Source of the DNA: Acorus gramineus
Taxonomy: Eukaryota > Streptophyta > Magnoliopsida > Acorales > Acoraceae
Length of the DNA: 64,000 nucleotides
Assembly (NCBI GenBank): GCA_030737835.1
Contig: CM060849.1
Location: 19,700,074-19,764,073, forward strand
Direction: 5' to 3'
Below are positions 41,328-64,000 of this stretch, in pieces (position 1 is the first letter of the stretch; every line of letters starts with the position of its first letter). The position numbers and the translations under genes were made by a program. The notes under the pieces are model-generated. The model did no database searches. It was not told the DNA's origin and was given only the letters and a program-made list of their open reading frames with translations.

Positions 41328-44300
41328 CTACTGTTGATTTGGCTGCTTCTGCTGTTGGAAGTTGGAATTCTGGTTTGTGTTTGGAAGGCTGACCATTCCA
41401 GGTTGTAGGTTTTGAACATTAGTCCCCATATTCGCAAATCCTCCTTGCATATTGTGTTGCTGCTGCTGTTGTTGCTGCTGCTGCTGCTGTTGCATGGACA
41501 ACATATTTGCAGGATTCGATCCGCCCATGTTGAACACTGCAATAGGTAAGTGACGACATGATTTTTAGTCCGCATATTAAAGGTTCCTCAAAAAAAAAAA
41601 AGAAAAAAAAAAGAAGAAAAGAAGTCACGTGTTGAAATTTTATGATCTGAACATGCCAGTGAAGAATTGTGAACTTCAATGAATAAAAGGAAAATATTCT
41701 CAAGAAAGTGAGAACCAAGCCATTAATGTGGATGAATTTCGGTCTCATATTGTTGTCTGGTAAAAATTACATCAACATTGCAATATAAAACCAGGGAGCA
41801 CCAAGCAATGGCATGAGTTATTATCTTCAAGAACACCATGTGCCTACTATCACCGGGTAACATGTGAAAATCATGAAATTTATATTCAACAATTACTATG
41901 AAGAATATATAAATGTTGTCTTTTTATGCATTTTCATTGTGAGGAATCTCGAGAACTTGTGAATGATTATGGACCATGATCCTGAAAGTCATTCAAATTT
42001 AGTGCACAACTCAAACACCTATTTACCAGATGATGATTTCACCATCTAAAGCTGAATAACATTTTAGAATAATATAATCCAAGAGTCCAATTGATATGTA
42101 AAGGTGCTTGATGCAAACAATCCCCCCCCCCCCCAAAAAAAAATAAAAAACAACAAAAAACAAAAAAACAAAGGTTCACGAGCTTTATTAACAATAACAC
42201 GGTGAACACTGATGCAGGAGCATCTTCCACCAACCCACTAAAAAGTATTGGAACATTCAACCTACAAAAAAATTTGATTTTTCAAACTTCTACTTGGTGG
42301 TTTGTGCATTATTAGTGGACTTATTTGTTGTAGGCTGCATTTCCAAATATTATAATTTGTAGAGTCTTGTTAAGTTGTGATCAAGGTCTTGTCATTTGCT
42401 TTGGCTTATTCCAAGATTTTGGCATATGCATATTTTGTTCCCAAGGCATGGGAATGGGGCATGTCATTTATGAGGCTTATCCCCTCCCTTGACCAATATA
42501 AACTCTCAAAGATGAATGGAAAAAAAGTTAGTTCAAAATCTTCTCTACAAAGTGAGCCTAAGAGCGACTATTACTTCTCTTATCTTTCTTTTTGTGAACA
42601 CCTTGTGACTTGTGAGCAAGTTAAAAGCGGCGAGAGCTTCTCTTATTTTATCGACAATCCATAGTAGGTGGCGAGTATTCTCTTATCCACTACATTCGAT
42701 TGGACCGACCCGAATGGAGTGGCAAGATTATCTTCTATTTAAGGTTACATCTCTTCAAGTAGGTGTTCCCCTATCATTTGGTATCAGAGCTTCTAGGAGA
42801 TATCTTGCAACGCTGATTGTGAGACGATCCAGTTGGCATTATCTCATCTCGATGGCATTCGAAAAAATTGAGGTTTCCTATCCTTTCATTGATAAAGAAA
42901 GTCCAAAAGCTCTTGTTGATTGGTTGGAGGAAGCAAACTTTTCCTCAATCTTTGATGAAGAGATTGAGGAGACGAACCTTCCACCAATCTTTGATGTAGA
43001 GGTCGAGGAGACAGACCATCCACCTATCTTCAATGAAGAGATGGGGGAGACCGAGCCCAAGAGCTCCCCTCCAATTTTTTATGAGGAAGTTGAGTAAACA
43101 TTGAAGTCCAAATTTGCGTATTTTTCACCTCCATTTATTTTCACACACCACCAAGGAACCTTCATTAACTCCCATGTTGGACCCATTTCAGGTCGCCCAT
43201 ACCTCTCCACCACCAAAAAGGCCATCACAAGAATCATTTGTAGATTCATTCTTTCCCTCCTCTATTTTATCCCATCCACCAGCCATTCTCAAGAAGTTAT
43301 TACCTGAAAGCTGTGTTTTTGAGGATTGATCTGATTGAATGAATGTGATTCGACAACCTACAAGATTCATTGTTCGTAGAAAATCCACATATGAAGGTCG
43401 AGGACAAAATTTCTTCGAACCAGGGGAATCTGATGCAAGAGCATCTTCCACCAACCAACTAAAAAGCATTGGAACATTCAACCCACCAAAAAGCATTGAT
43501 TTTTCAAACTTCTACTGAGGGGTTTGTGCATTATTAGTGGACTTATTTGTTGTAGGTTGCATTTCCAAACCTTGTAATTTATAGTGTCTTGTAAGTTGTG
43601 GTCAAAGCCTTGTAATTTGTTTTGGCTTATTACTAAAGTTTTGGAATATGCATATTTTGTTCCAAGACATAGGAATGAGACAAATCAACATAAAACTTAT
43701 TACCATTTATGAGACTTGTCCCCTCCTTTGGCCAATATAAGCTCTGAAAGATGAATGAAAAAAAAAAAAGTCAAATTGAGTTCAAATCTTCTCTACAAAG
43801 TGAGCCTAAGAGTGACTACTCTTGAGTGCCTACAACTTTTCTTATCACTCTTGTGAACACCTTGTGAGAAAGTTGAAAGTGGCGAAAACTTCTCGTCTTC
43901 ACTCATTGATCGACGATCCGTAGGAGGTGGTGAGTGTCCTCTTATCCTCTATGTTTGATCGGACTGATCCAATTGGAGTGGCGAGATTATCTTTCTTATT
44001 TTCTTCTCATAATGTTACATCTCCTCTTCGAGTAGGTGTTCGTGGAAACTCAACTTGACTTTCATTCCCATTCATTTTTTAGAGCATATATAGGCCAAGA
44101 AAGGGGACATGCCTCATAAATGGCAACAAGTTTCATGTTGACTTGCCCGATTCCTATGCCTTGGGAACAAAATATGCATATTCCAAAACTTTGGAATTAG
44201 CCAATAAAAATTGCAAAACTTTGACCACAACTTATAAAACTATAAATTACAAGGTTTGGAAATACAACCTACAACAAGTAAGTCCACTAATAATGCACAA

Positions 44301-47300
44301 ACCACCAAATAGAAGTGTGAAAAATCAATGTTTTTTGGTGGGTTGAATGTTCCAATGCATTTTAGTGGGTTGGTGGAAGATGCTCCCGCATCAAACACCA
44401 ACAATTCTATAAAAATAATGGAACATAAAATAAAATAAGGTTTGACTTCATATATCCATCAGGTTCCTAAGTGTTTAAAGGCCTACTTTTAGCTCCTTAT
44501 CATCAAAAGATTTTGACTAGGAATATACCTGATTCCAGGTTTGAATCACAATTATCGCATTGGGGTCTGTTATGATCCCAGATGATAAAAATTTGACAAA
44601 AAATCCAATTAAAATTTATCTAAAAAAAAAATCCAATTCAAATTTGGCTTAAAAACACCATGGACTTGACTTCTTGCAAAAAATGCATAAATATGAAACT
44701 AATAGTGAATACACTCTTATGAAAACTGCTACCATCTTGCCAACAAAAAATCACATGTTTTACCATGTAAGAAAAAACTTTTGGAATCAATACAGACTCA
44801 TTCCCACAGAAGTAATACAATAGAAACCAATGGTAATAAGGTTCATTTGATCACCCTAACATCATTCTGTTGTTCATTCGTTCAATTTTGTATGCATCGC
44901 AAACATATAAAACTAATTTCAGCAATATGATATCATTTCAATCCTGATGATAATTTCCCTGATTTCAAAATGTCAACCATACTGAAGCCAGAAAAAAAAA
45001 GTGGTGATGTATTACATACTCTGATCACTTAAAATTTGTGAAGGGTGGGCCCTTAGAGAATGTCCACCAGATAGTCCAAACTGCTAGAAGTAAGCGAATA
45101 GGGTTAGTAAAAAGATTTTTTCACAACTTTAAGCCATTTGCATGTACAATACAAAAATTACTACTCGCTCTATATAGGTAGATACATAATTTGATACCAC
45201 AGATGTTAAATGTGCTGGGTGGAGCTTATTTTAAATTTCAAACTCATGTGAAGTTCGGAGCTTATAATGACTAAGATAACAAAAACAGTTCCATCAACAA
45301 GTCATGATATATCAGACCACATAGTAAACTTAAAAAAATCATTTTAGCAATGTGCAGGAGAGACGAGAGTTGAACATTTTGGTTATCAAAATCAGGGAGG
45401 ACAGAAATGCAAAAGACCAACCTGCATCCGTGGCAAAAGTGATTGAGACGGAATTGTAGCTGACATGTTTGGAATCTGAAAGGAGAAAGACAACATAAGC
45501 AAACAAATCTGCCTTTGATATTATGAATTACATGACACGGTCATACAGTATTTTTTTTTTAATTAAAAAAAAAAGCAAAGATACTGAGATTTTTCCATGC
45601 AAAAGATGGATTTAGGATAGAAAAGCAAGTGTTATACTTGCGAAAGACAAACTAAAGGATCTCTTAGTATCAAGCTATAATTATTGTGCTGGAAGAAGTA
45701 TACCAGCAGAACCATGTAAAAAAAAAAGGTTTTGCATATCCCTAAAATTTGCATTTATTGGCCTTTCTGATACTGTTACTAATATATCATTGAAATATCT
45801 TAAAAAAATAATTGACATAAGATGGGAAGAAATTTCAACAGCTTTTTTTTTCTATATTCATCATTGTCGCACAGAAGTGCATACTCAACAAAGTATCTCA
45901 CCCATTGTTCTTAGTCGTCTGACCTAGCTAGGGAGATAACACTTAAAAGTTTACTGATCAGAATTGGATATTAAGCACAAAAAACAAGACAGATCAACTA
46001 CAATGCGAACACTTAAGACGTGGGATACACTGAAAAAAAGGAGAGAAGAATTGTTATAACAGATGCTGGGTGAATAACCAATTTGAGAAAAGAAAGGAAA
46101 AAACACTGTATAAAATTAGGTAGCCTGTACAAGCAAACCGGATAGCAATAAAATTACAATAAAAATACTAAATTACAATACACCAGTGTGAATGAGAAAT
46201 CTATAGGAGTAGCTAGCTTGTACGAGAAAACCAGATATCACACAGTTGCCTCCAGAATTTAATATGAGCAATATAGATAAATTTAACTAGCTAGATGCAA
46301 CTAGAGAAAAGAAAACTTTGTTTTTCCCAAATCAGGAACAAAAAGGACCTACCATCTGAGAATTAGGTGACGTCTGCGCAGTGTTGAACAATGCATTGCT
46401 AGGAGCTCCAGAGAACTGGCCTAAATGACTTCTCAACTGATTCTGGTTAAGTTGATTCTGCATGATATTGTGCTGCATCTGTCCAGACTGCAATTGCCTG
46501 TTCTGGAATTGTTGTTGTGCTAATGGTTGAGAATATTGCATCTGGTGTTGCACCTGGGACACATATTTCGATGTAATGCCAAGTGATAAGATAACACCTA
46601 TTCTGGATATAATTGCGTGGGAAAAAATTGCACAAAGGAAAAGATATGGTTCTCTTTATTACCTGCTGCAATTTCTGCTGAGATTGCCCTTGGAGATCAT
46701 GTAATTGTTGCACTGTGTTCTGCCAATAACAAGGAAAAATGTATTTAAATTTTTTTAATATCCCCCAACATCATTTCACCTTGTGTTCTGCCACTTTGAA
46801 CATTTTTCAAAATTAAAAGACATAGCAATCCCAGCAACACAAGCTCAACAAAATTCTCATAAGAAATGGCCCTTAGGTTCCCATATCACTAGATGGGTTT
46901 TGCAAAACAAAGGGACAGGAGCAAAAAGAGTTTCATATGACATAGGATAAACTACCCTTGGATATACGCCGAAATTACGCCTTTCTTTTCAAGTTATTCC
47001 TTGATCATTCCTCACCAAAAGCAATAATGCTTATATTTCACTGGATGTGTCCCATGCAGACATAACATAATCATATTTGAGAACTTATCAAGAGCAGGAA
47101 TCTTCGTGAGGTTTCTAAGCTATGGGACGGGAAAAAGTTTAGAACAAAGACAAAGTTCAGTCTTACTGGAAATGCAGTTGCCAAAGTTGTTACATCAAAT
47201 TCTGTAAGCCAACTAAAGAGGATCCAGGTCAATCGTAATGAAAGTCAACCAAATTATATGAGACATTTAGAGGCACCTATTTGGACAAAGACAATGCAAC

Positions 47301-59100: not shown

Positions 59101-61498
59101 ACTATTCCTTCATTTTCTTCTCGACACTGCACCCAATTACCAATAAACGCTGATAACTTTTTTGAGTTGCACCCCTAGAAATCCAAGGAAATATTTGTCT
59201 AGTAATTCTACATAACATACTAGTAGAGTATAATAAAAGAAATTAATCAAGGAAAACAAAATAAAATTTAAAAAAACTCACATTAAGACCATCACACTCA
59301 GCTGCATTGACTTCAATTGGTTCACAAAATGCATCAAAGTTACTGCAAATCACGGTGAACTGAATCAACTACCAAAAAAAAAAAAACTCTATACAACAGA
59401 ATGTCATCATATACTAAGAACAGAAAACTGTAGATTAGCTGCTCAATAAATAAATACAATCCAACCTCTAAATGACATAGGTAACATAATCCCACGAAGT
59501 GGATGATTGCTGATAATAAGATGTTTAACAAAAGTTAGAGAAAGCAGATTCCACCTCATTGACTGAGATATTCAAGTGTTATACAAAGACAAGTTAAAAT
59601 TCACTAGTTCGAACAAACAACACGAAAACAATCTTAAATGAAACTTGCAAAATATCAAACATTGTCACATTTATTAGTTTACCACAACTGAAAGTATTAG
59701 ATAGAATGATAGTAACGCATACATAAAGTTTTTGTTCAGATTTGACCAATAGCTAGCATTCCATAATTTAGTTTCATAAATCATACATAATTGGTGAAAT
59801 TAAGCTAAGTTTACATTGTTAAAAATACCTGCCGACTGGACCAGTCCACTCTGGTACTTCAGCTTGAAAATCTATACCAATTCGGACCACCGATGTATAG
59901 GGGTCAGTGTCTTTCAACATTGATTTTATTCGACTTTGACATGGTTTTTTAATGCGCTCAGAAACTCCCCCAGAGGCATTTGATCTTTTGGTAGCAGTAT
60001 TCTCATACAAGGTTATAGGTCTCTTCTGAAAACAAGTTCGACAATACCATTCATTAACCAGTACACTTTTCACTCTTGTATTGCAGCAAGCCATATGAAA
60101 TGCTTCATCACAAAGATCACATATCAACATTGTTTGTCTATTGTCTTGAATGCCACATACTTTGCAAGATTGCAAGCAATTGGCATCATTGGTACAGTCT
60201 ACCTTGACAGTAGGTAAAACACCTGAACGTTGATCTTCTTCAAGCAGTCCATGTTTTTTAAGTATAAAAATACATGATTCTTTTGCTGAATTGCCATCCC
60301 TAAACAATTCCATTGGAATATCAGAAGAAGAACATTCGCCAGTGTCACCTACATCAGCCTTCATGGTAGTTGCATCATTTTCGATGTTCAACTTCGATGA
60401 TGAGCAGCTATCATTTGCACTGGAATCATTATCTGGTGCTGATTTTTTAACATGAGAAACAAGGTCTACTGAAGAAAACCCTTGATCCGCCCCAGTCGAA
60501 CGTTTGACAGGAGAGTCCAATTCAGAGATAAATGCTAGATTCACGGTTCTATTTTGTGAGTGAAGATTGGTGATAGGTTTCAGACAACCATCTCCATCAA
60601 GAGATTCAGCACAAAGACTAGAAAGATGTTCATACCTACTCTTCATACTTTCTGCTCTAGTATCTGCAGATAAATTTGCAACAATATGCTTGCAAAGCTT
60701 CCGCCGCTTGTAAACAAGTTTATTTCTTTTCGCCCCAATTGAACTTTTAAGAGGAGAGTCCAATTCAGAGATGAATTCTAAATTCACAGTTCTATGTTGT
60801 GAGTGAAGATTGGTGGTAGGTTTCAGACAGCCATCTCCATCAAGAGATTCAGCACAAAGATTAGAAAGATGTTCACTCCCACTCTTCGTACTTTCTGCTG
60901 TAGTATGTGCAGATATATTTGCAACAATATTCTTGAGAAGCTTCCGCCGCTTGTAAACAATATTTCTTTCCGCCCCAATTGAACTTTTAACAGGAGAGTC
61001 TAATTTAGAGACAAATTCTAAATTCACAGTTCTATTTTGTGAATGAAGATTGGTGATAGGTTTCAGACAACCATCTCCATCAAGAGATTCAGCACAAAGA
61101 CCAGAAAGATGTTCACTCCCACTGTTCATACTTTCTTCTGTAGTATGTGCAGATAAATTTGCAACAATATGCTTGCGAAGCTTCCGCCGCTTGTAAACAA
61201 GTTTATTTCTTTCCACTCCAGAAGCCACACACATAATGCTGACAGTTGAAGAGTCAGAGATGGTTTTGGATTGAATTGGAGTCTCAGATTCAACAATTCT
61301 GTCTATTTTGTCCATGATAGAAGCAAATTGTCTACAGATAACTCCTGAGAACTGTTCACATCTTGAGCACTTCTGCCCATGTTCAGTACAGTGTGCCCAT
61401 CCATGTACTAAGTCCATGTCTGGTCCCTTTCCGTGGTCAGATTGAAAAGCTAAATTTGTATTCAGTGAATTAGGAAGAGAACTCTGTACCAACATCAT
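56192..61498 (-). CDS. PHD-finger protein with a triplicated internal segment, six coding exons
   Basis: Exons: 61498-59829, 59342-59282, 59174-59083, 57546-57456, 56641-56594, 56248-56192, GT-AG, giving 672 aa. PHD fingers usually read histone tails, so a nuclear chromatin role is likely (inference). A complete C4HC3 finger lies at about residues 443-489 (SCKVCGIQDNRQTMLICDLC, DEAFHMACC, NEWYCRTC). After it come RIGIDFQAEVPEWTGPVG, a GNWVQCREEN segment, KWRRVPLSVVQTDDWDCSC with AVIWDPIHADCAVPQ, and HLKYVQLLRPRLAKK, an architecture I recall from Arabidopsis PHD proteins such as At1g77250. Residues about 93-334 are three tandem copies of an 80-81-residue unit, each with a basic VYKRRKL and a CAESLDGDGCLKP block. 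The start MMLVQSS follows an in-frame stop and a good acceptor at 61508, so a separate 5' UTR exon is likely. Confidence 0.9.
57992..58351. mobile_element. 360-bp hAT-type MITE with dense TTCGAA motifs
   Basis: The element starts CATAGTTTGAA and ends TTGAACTATG, giving inverted ends CATAGTT. It is flanked by GTTACCAC on both sides (57984-57991 and 58352-58359), a perfect 8-bp duplication as expected for hAT elements. The interior 58085-58250 has nine TTCGAA palindromes, several as GTTCGAAC or TTCGAACGG, and the subterminal parts are rich in GCGGCC, GCATGT and GTGCG words. It is far more GC-rich than its surroundings and lies in an intron of the PHD gene. The frames it produces look non-coding. 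Confidence 0.88.
60497..61222 (-). repeat. In-frame tandem triplication, unit 240-243 bp
   Basis: The anchor CTTCCGCCGCTTGTAAACAA recurs at 61181, 60941 and 60698 on the + strand, so the periods are 240 and 243 bp. Unit 2 lacks one codon (NIVYK against NKLVYK). All three units remain in frame and differ by scattered substitutions. Confidence 0.92.
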
Positions 61499-64000
61499 TA
61501 ACCTGCCCTGAAATATGAAAAATCAAACTGCAGCCATTCCACATGCAGTGACAACAGGACTCCTTTACCATGTGTAAATTTCAGGAGTTTTGCACAATGT
61601 GACAAACAAAAACCGTTCCATGAACTTAAAGAGCCATGAAAGACATCATGTCCAATCACGAAGACACGAAGTATTCTGAAACGGCAAAAAAGAATGCAGG
61701 GATAAATTCATAAAAAAAACTTTTGCATTAAGCATCTAAATGCAAGAAACAACATTAAAAATATCAGTAACTCAGAATAAGCAATGAAGAAAGGGACAAA
61801 AACACACAATTCTGCATTATGAAGGGACTAACCAGACAGAGCAGACAGTTGAATTTTTGAAGTCATCAGAGCTGAAACATTTCACTAAGCAAACAAGTGG
61901 GATGAGTTAATTGAGGTCTGGTCATCCAGAACAACTATAGTTCAGCACTAGGTCCAACACTGCCTGAGTCAAAAATATCTGTTTCAAACCAAATCAGATG
62001 GATCAAAAAAAGGGTCACTGGCCTGGCTCAATTGAGAATGAACGGGACACATCCAACATTGTTGGGTCTCTATTTGCTCACCTGACCTCCAAGTATTCCA
62101 AAAAAGCACACACTCTCCACTTGGATGTAGGACCATTTCATATACTCAATATTCTACTTCTTACTGCCTCCCACACATACCTACTCCACCGAGAATCATG
62201 GTTCTCAAAAATGGCACCACCCATGCCATCAGATGACATGAAACTTTACCTAGATATTATATGACTACACAGGTGTATCTAGGCTGAGGCAGGTGCCTTC
62301 TATCTAGGCTTGTCAACCGGTAAGGTTCGGGTCGGATCATGGTGGAGTCAGACCTGACCAGACAGCGGGCTCATCAGGATGGATCCTGCATAAAAAGACC
62401 CAGATTCAGACCCATCGGACCTGGACAATCCATGGAGTAGTGCAGAAGTACATACTCTCCTCCTCCCTCAATGACCTCCTCTCCTTCCCCTTCATCCACC
62501 CAATTTTGGCACCTCCAGGCCTCAAAGATAAATCCCCATTTGTCAGAGTGCAAAAGAAGCCAAGTGAGAAGGTTGATCTTGCTACCGGCACTGTCATAAA
62601 ATGAAAGTGAGGTTACAAGTCCGAATGGGGATGAGAGGAGAGAAAACAAAAACAAAAACAAAAAATGAGATCAAGTGAAAGGGTGTTGTGGGTTCATCAG
62701 TAGATGGGATGTCTACCGATGGGGCACCACCACATCTTTCCCCCAGGAGACCGCGCTACTCTAAAACCGATGGAGTCTGATGGGATGTTTGTTTTATTCT
62801 TTTTTTGCTTTTTGTTGGTTGGATTTGATGTCACAAACTCACAATGTATATATTGTTCAAAGAAATCCTCATGTTTTTTTTTTATAACATGGGTTTGTCA
62901 TTGATGGGGAGTGAATGGATGCTTTTTCGGGACATTATTTATTATTTTAGTTGAACAAGTGTTGATTGACTAGTTTGTAATGAATGATTTATGGTTGCCA
63001 ATTGGGATTTACGTTGATAGATTTTGTTGGGTAAATGTACACTACTGAATTGTCATATATTCATGCAATTTTTGTTTTCACACTACTTGCACTAGATGAA
63101 TTCATTTACATATCATGATCCTGATATCTTATGAACGCCCAGACCAAACCCTAACCCAAACCCTAGAAATAACAACATAAACTACAGAAAACATAAAGAT
63201 TCACATCAATGCAACCTACCTAATCATCCAATAATGAACAAATCATCACATAAAACAGCATTCCATTCATTTCATATACAAAAACAGATTAAACCAACAC
63301 AAACAACCAACAAATCAATATTAACAGAAATACATGATCGGATCTGCGTTTCAAGGGATACCTCGTTTTCAATGGCAGATTATGAGAAAACCGAAGTCAA
63401 ATTTCAAAGTTTTGGTTTTTGTTATAGTGGAACGAAAGGACGCATAAGAGAGAGAGCGACCCCTCCAAACCTCTAAAGAGAAAACATTGAAACCAGAATA
63501 TGAAAACACGAGTGAAGATATGTGTTGATTTGAAAGGCTGGTTTTATATGCCTTTCCAAGAAAGATGGAAATTGTGCACTTGTCATTTTCAAAATCCAAA
63601 AAAATGGAATTTGAAATTGAAATTTGAATTTTAAGTGTCATATGGATTTGTTTCTTTTCCTTTTTTTTTTTTTATCAATTTTGTCAATGTTGTTTGGAAT
63701 CACTTGCCAAATTAATTCTTTTTAAGCAAAATTAATTTTCAAATAATCAATTGCAAATGGTTTTTTTTGTTTTTTATGAAAAAAAATGGTTGAGACTAGT
63801 TTTTATAAAAAAAAATTATATGAATCCAAAAGGCTATTTATGACTTCGAGGAAGAATTTTAAAAACAAGATTTATAATAATAATTAAAAGCATAGGCTAT
63901 ATTGATGATGATGTTATTATATTTTATTTAATATCGATTCAACAACTATAGCTTAAGGCACTTAGATTCAGAATGAAGATACGACATGAGATATTATATT
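61499..64000. other. Upstream region of the PHD gene, probable 5' UTR intron and promoter
   Basis: No recognisable protein is encoded. A plausible non-coding first exon on the minus strand ends at 63362 with a CGAG|GTATCC donor, which could join the acceptor at 61508, making a leader intron of about 1.85 kb. A telobox-like AAACCCTAACCCAAACCCTA lies at 63146-63165, inside that proposed intron. A stretch at about 62275-62400 (GGTTCGGGTCGG and nearby) looks like decayed transposon sequence. The last 300 bases are AT-rich with no feature. Confidence 0.4.
63146..63165. promoter_or_regulatory. Telobox-like motif pair
   Basis: AAACCCTA occurs twice with one diverged unit between (AAACCCTAACCCAAACCCTA). 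Teloboxes are common near transcription starts of plant growth and chromatin genes. It lies about 200 bp inside the proposed PHD leader intron. Confidence 0.4.

Follow-up and report, generated by a model that had tools for sequence, protein, structure and literature searches.

How can an LTR insertion carry the head of U3 at both of its outer ends and still lie within a single 5-bp duplication? This question is raised by a block at positions 42210–44393 of the 64,000-nucleotide stretch of Acorus gramineus DNA analysed here (contig CM060849.1; hereafter the window). The original prediction was that a rearranged cDNA had been integrated in one event.

Anatomy of the insertion

The block is composed, from left to right, of LTR1, the dinucleotide TT, a primer site, an interior of ~650 bp, a polypurine tract, LTR2, the bases GTGGA and an inverted LTR3. 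This order and the coordinates had been described before, and our reading of the sequence and alignment of the LTRs confirmed them. LTR1 (42210–42776, + strand) is a complete 5′ LTR (U3-R-U5) of 567 bp (TGATGC...CTATCA), identified by its TG...CA ends and the primer site next to it, and contains a TATA at 42497–42500 (+) that represents a promoter candidate by motif. The primer-binding site, TGGTATCAGAGC (42779–42790, +), was read from the sequence directly after TT, and we take it to be the complement of initiator tRNA-Met. The short interior (42777–43430, +) lacks polymerase genes, and related interiors occur at nine other places among the genome matches listed. A stop-to-stop frame of 162 codons (42609–43097) returned zero Pfam matches at E 0.001. 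Within the interior, three 39-bp tandem repeats (42927–43051) give a repeated acidic 13-residue motif in this frame, and a similar repeat is found in the interiors of L014, L015 and L031. The polypurine tract, AGGGGAATC (43422–43430, +), is located 5′ of LTR2, and a comparable tract precedes the 3′ LTRs of the family copies L009, L014, L020 and L021.

The right part of the block departs from this regular organisation. Alignment to LTR1 identified LTR2 (43431–44041, +) as a 3′ LTR without its final 8 bp, which are present in LTR1 as CCCTATCA. LTR2 is followed by five junction bases, GTGGA (44042–44046), which on comparison of the junction could not be assigned clearly to one copy or the other. 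These are followed by LTR3 (44047–44393, − strand), which the alignment shows to be inverted, to consist of U3 only and to end in GCATCA. The start of LTR3 coincides exactly with the U3 edge, and the copy runs to ~45 nt beyond its TATA (44092–44089), near the start of R as predicted from the TATA only. As first noted, the right edge is thus the reverse complement of the U3 start, and AACAC surrounds the whole block; direct reading places the two copies of this putative 5-bp target-site duplication at 42205–42209 and 44394–44398. An assembly chimera appears unlikely because the copies differ by 12–15%.

Family and ordinary relatives

Judged from sequence, the family is Ty3/gypsy, an assignment made via the full-length relative L021, whose gag, reverse transcriptase and RNase H are of Ty3/gypsy type and which aligns at 77–78% in R-U5. 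The window element lacks reverse transcriptase, RNase H and Ty3-type gag, genes of the kind carried by L021, and retains direct TG...CA LTRs, the primer site and the polypurine tract, with LTR2 missing the CA end. Non-autonomous short Ty3/gypsy elements likewise feature LTRs, a primer site, a polypurine tract and a short interior; the window element differs from them in its additional, inverted U3 and in lacking the U5 tip. Short elements of this kind presumably correspond to the LARD or TR-GAG type.

Copies of the family are found genome-wide, with at least 83 matches to the whole block in the 398.6-Mb assembly (40 of 196 candidates scored). The same element with the same flanks was observed in the pairs L018/L019 (97% over 5.1 kb), L010/L011 and L020/L021; these paired places are either uncollapsed haplotypes or segmental duplications.

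Target-site duplication

Comparison of the outer ends of 14 family copies, which are not independent as L010/L011 and L020/L021 share flanks, identified exact 5-bp duplications in nine, a duplication with one mismatch in three and none in two (L025 and L026, both broken); most of the family copies offer several candidate LTR ends, from which the canonical end was chosen. The U3 heads define both ends of the window element, and AACAC is repeated there without mismatch. Random pairs of 5-mers from the 2-kb flanks were identical in 0.26% of draws, with AACAC itself not rare locally (seven and five occurrences in the two flanks). The composite behaves like a single insertion, given the exact match, the low rate of chance identity and the 5-bp norm of the family. 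L014 and L016, ordinary relatives of about the same length, each combine direct LTRs with an exact 5-bp duplication, which L016 has kept even though its LTRs are only ~81% alike.

An inverted copy of the left flank was ruled out as the source of the right-hand match, since the right flank reads AACAC and not the reverse complement of the left. No empty site was found in the assembly, where both flanks are single-copy and only short stretches elsewhere (41–59 bases) match the left one.

Relationship of the three U3 copies

The alignment of the three LTR copies, which had been proposed as a check, shows U3 identities far beyond chance (LTR1-LTR2 86.9%, LTR1-LTR3 85.0% and LTR2-LTR3 87.6%, gap columns excluded). 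Divergence among the copies is star-like, with 23, 15 and 24 unique sites in LTR1, LTR2 and LTR3, respectively (chi-square p=0.31), and terminal branches of 0.070, 0.062 and 0.076. When changes were polarised with L010 and L012 as outgroups, three were shared by LTR2 and LTR3, two by LTR1 and LTR2 and none by LTR1 and LTR3. As read from these substitutions, the pattern is the expectation for three initially identical copies.

A genome search with the U3 of LTR2, in which 40 of 51 candidates were scored, retrieved, after LTR2 itself, LTR3 (86%), LTR1 (80%), C8 (78%) and C4/C11 (76%); beyond the window, C8, C4 and C11 were the only places in this search with a full-length U3 of the same type. 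C4 and C11 have an identical 25-base flank. The star-like divergence and the finding that the best genome matches of LTR2 are the two local copies suggest that LTR3 is probably of the same age and origin as the rest of the element.

One feature that had been brought forward as shared by LTR2 and LTR3 does not bear on their relationship. LTR2 and LTR3 do share a segment of 18 bp (of the CAACATGAAACTTGTTGCC type) that LTR1 lacks. In an alignment of 12 rows it is retained in every row except LTR1, in shortened form in L012; its absence therefore reflects a deletion private to LTR1 (~18 bp, approximately at 42460–42466, + strand) and does not link LTR2 to LTR3.

Trees and comparison of R-U5

The first trees and the U3 AU test were based on 7 of the 12 aligned copies (without L011, both L020 rows, L023 and L009), and later trees on 9 copies for R-U5 and 10 for U3; L029 stood outside all of these comparisons. 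The U3 trees have poor support, and L010 or L012 may fall among LTR1–LTR3. Trees that part LTR3 from LTR1 and LTR2 were not rejected (AU 0.086–0.351), and the grouping of LTR2 with LTR3 is weak (bootstrap 49–55).

In R-U5, LTR1 and LTR2 are 81.3% identical. L022 (84.7%) and L020 (83.4%) resemble LTR1 more closely than LTR2 does, and LTR2 is nearer to the solo LTR of L009 (84.5%), to L013 and to L010 than to LTR1. The best R-U5 tree separates LTR1 from LTR2, and their union was not rejected (AU 0.24). The likeness of LTR1 to L020 and L022 could come from the short branches of these two copies in the tree; other possible sources of the pattern are mixed parentage, with two co-packaged RNAs, and subsequent conversion. 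Because LTR1 and LTR2 do not group in R-U5, we hold the single-event reading slightly less firmly.

Origin of the composite

We consider it somewhat probable that the composite arose when an aberrant cDNA bearing U3 at each end was integrated in a single event. A short non-autonomous element of Ty3/gypsy type would have been reverse transcribed abnormally, yielding a linear cDNA of the form LTR-interior-LTR in which an inverted U3 replaced the last 8 bp of U5 at the right end. Both ends of such a molecule would be U3 heads starting with TGAT, and the family integrase would have joined both heads to one target, leaving the usual 5-bp duplication, here AACAC. As the cause we infer one non-homologous strand switch, between the U5 end and the U3/R border, with a plus-strand U3 fragment beginning exactly at the polypurine-tract cut as the partner. 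Plus-strand synthesis in retroelements starts at the U3 edge. A single switch that connected a plus-strand U3 fragment with the U5 end would explain both the exact U3 start of LTR3 and its stop near R.

Such a switch could have occurred in two ways: the plus-strand U3 fragment may have served as minus-strand primer instead of the tRNA, or the plus strand may have run off near the U5 end and then used a plus-strand U3 as template as far as the 5′ end of that U3. The same product would be obtained if two cDNAs had been end-joined before integration; the five bases at the junction agree with either non-homologous switching or end-joining, which are indistinguishable at such age. A more specific proposition we regard as rather unlikely: a plus-strand U3 fragment would have replaced the tRNA as minus-strand primer near the U5 end, and integrase would then have paired two U3 ends in vivo and produced a normal 5-bp duplication.

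The single integration put forward in the original prediction, and the co-origin of the three LTR copies, are supported by flanks that match the 5-bp norm of the family, by the star-like U3 divergence and by the closeness of the copies, whereas the trees fail to resolve the placement of LTR3. Template switching during reverse transcription, suggested in the same prediction, would be a plausible cause. Counting against a single integration, as far as sequence comparison can tell, are the failure of LTR1 and LTR2 to group in R-U5, the unresolved U3 tree and the existence of inverted neighbours of the L009 type that arose otherwise.

The main rival, in itself unlikely, is that an ordinary LTR-interior-LTR element flanked by AACAC was inserted first, and that a later template switch during replication or repair at the end of LTR2 copied an inverted U3 and returned at the LTR tip via the shared ATCA. 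The duplication would then be accounted for without any U3/U3 integration, and the 4-bp homology at the tip does exist (CTATCA in U5 and GCATCA in the inverted U3). Although LTR2 and LTR3 are the closest pair (87.6%) and group weakly, each resembles LTR1 almost as much, so that the switch would have to be early. The scenario also calls for two switches, of which the second must fall precisely on the edge of the LTR.

If two elements had been inserted independently in opposite orientations and a deletion had then taken away the final bases of LTR2 and everything but U3 of the second element, the AACAC match would be a product of chance, a result obtained in only 0.26% of random draws. Close inverted neighbours of the family are known here (L009, L017 and L018/L019), and the R-U5 grouping is compatible with a mixed origin. 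The side-by-side position of the copies would be a coincidence, with only C8, C4 and C11 carrying full-length U3 elsewhere (40 of 51 candidates scored), and the three copies are equally divergent; we judge this explanation improbable.

Self-integration of the cDNA by integrase before integration of the rearranged product, which had also been suggested, is very improbable: autointegration is known to give inverted two-LTR circles (PMC4751563), but its known products are circles and not linear molecules with two U3 ends, and this explanation fits poorly because a joint made by integrase should retain the CA of U5, whereas LTR2 lacks its last 8 bp, CA included.

Recurrence and other inverted arrangements

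The original prediction raised the possibility of a recurrent head-to-head form, and the genome search for relatives yielded no second example among the matches listed. Among the at least 83 genome matches (40 of 196 candidates scored), only the window itself spans the joint between LTR2 and LTR3. Eight of the nine interior-bearing loci were inspected, the ninth being C1:27.57 Mb, which has matches like C78; L018 and L019, the same stretch, were counted as one, giving seven distinct loci. At these seven loci, with outer flanks compared only in L014, L015 and L016, no duplication-flanked U3/U3 insertion was found.

The LTRs of L014, L016 and L031 are direct, and several other copies have inverted arrangements of different kinds. 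In L009 the inverted neighbour is clearly a distinct solo LTR, flanked by a TTTAT duplication of its own. In L015 (2159–5997) the 5′ LTR is inverted, is split by an insert of ~1.6 kb and meets the interior at the primer site; both outer ends of this element are U5 tails, and its flanks are unlike (GGGGG and AGGGC). In L017 the second LTR is inverted and has its own primer site, and the left end is truncated. In L018/L019 an inverted LTR is apparently nested within the 5′ LTR. At L030 (872–1695), a locus where the interior is not matched, a 79-bp U5 tip lies inverted next to a stretch resembling the integrase C-terminus, a polypurine tract and a truncated LTR, and no matching duplication was seen around this rearrangement. 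With no other match to the joint and no duplication-flanked U3/U3 insertion among the inverted neighbours, the window structure looks like a one-off accident.

Comparison with known systems

Complexes of three LTRs inside one 5-bp duplication have been described and explained by template switching before a single integration (Sabot and Schulman, 2007; PMC1950507). These complexes contain three direct LTRs and two interiors, have ordinary U3 and U5 ends and show similar outer LTRs. The window block shares with them the three LTRs and the one 5-bp duplication around the whole, but its third LTR is inverted, terminal and limited to U3, it has one interior and both of its ends are U3. The outer LTRs are highly similar in the described complexes; LTR1 and LTR3 of the window are 85.0% identical, no closer than the other pairs, a value to be expected of an old insertion but not diagnostic. 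In autointegration of Ty1 and retroviruses, inverted 2-LTR circles are joined by integrase at intact LTR tips (PMC4751563). As in the products described there, parts of the cDNA are inverted in the window block; unlike those circles, the window form is linear and integrated, with an incomplete internal U5 tip. In the open-access literature searched, no description of a duplication-flanked U3/U3 insertion was found. What distinguishes the window case, a single decayed one, from template-switch complexes and autointegration products is its orientation and the presence of U3 at both ends.

If the block did arise by one integration, it would show that two U3 ends could serve as substrates for such an integrase and still yield a regular duplication, and that reverse-transcription errors can produce molecules with inverted ends that are competent for integration. 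Such insertions would be overlooked, or taken for nested elements, by programs designed to find direct LTRs. A single decayed example documents an accident and not a mode of life; it is probably a rare copying accident and no new type of element.

Elsewhere in the window, at 60486–61214 (− strand) inside the open reading frame at 59819–61522, a frame for a PHD-finger protein contains three tandem units of 240 bp that are ~90% alike and stay in one open frame, forming an 80-residue protein repeat.
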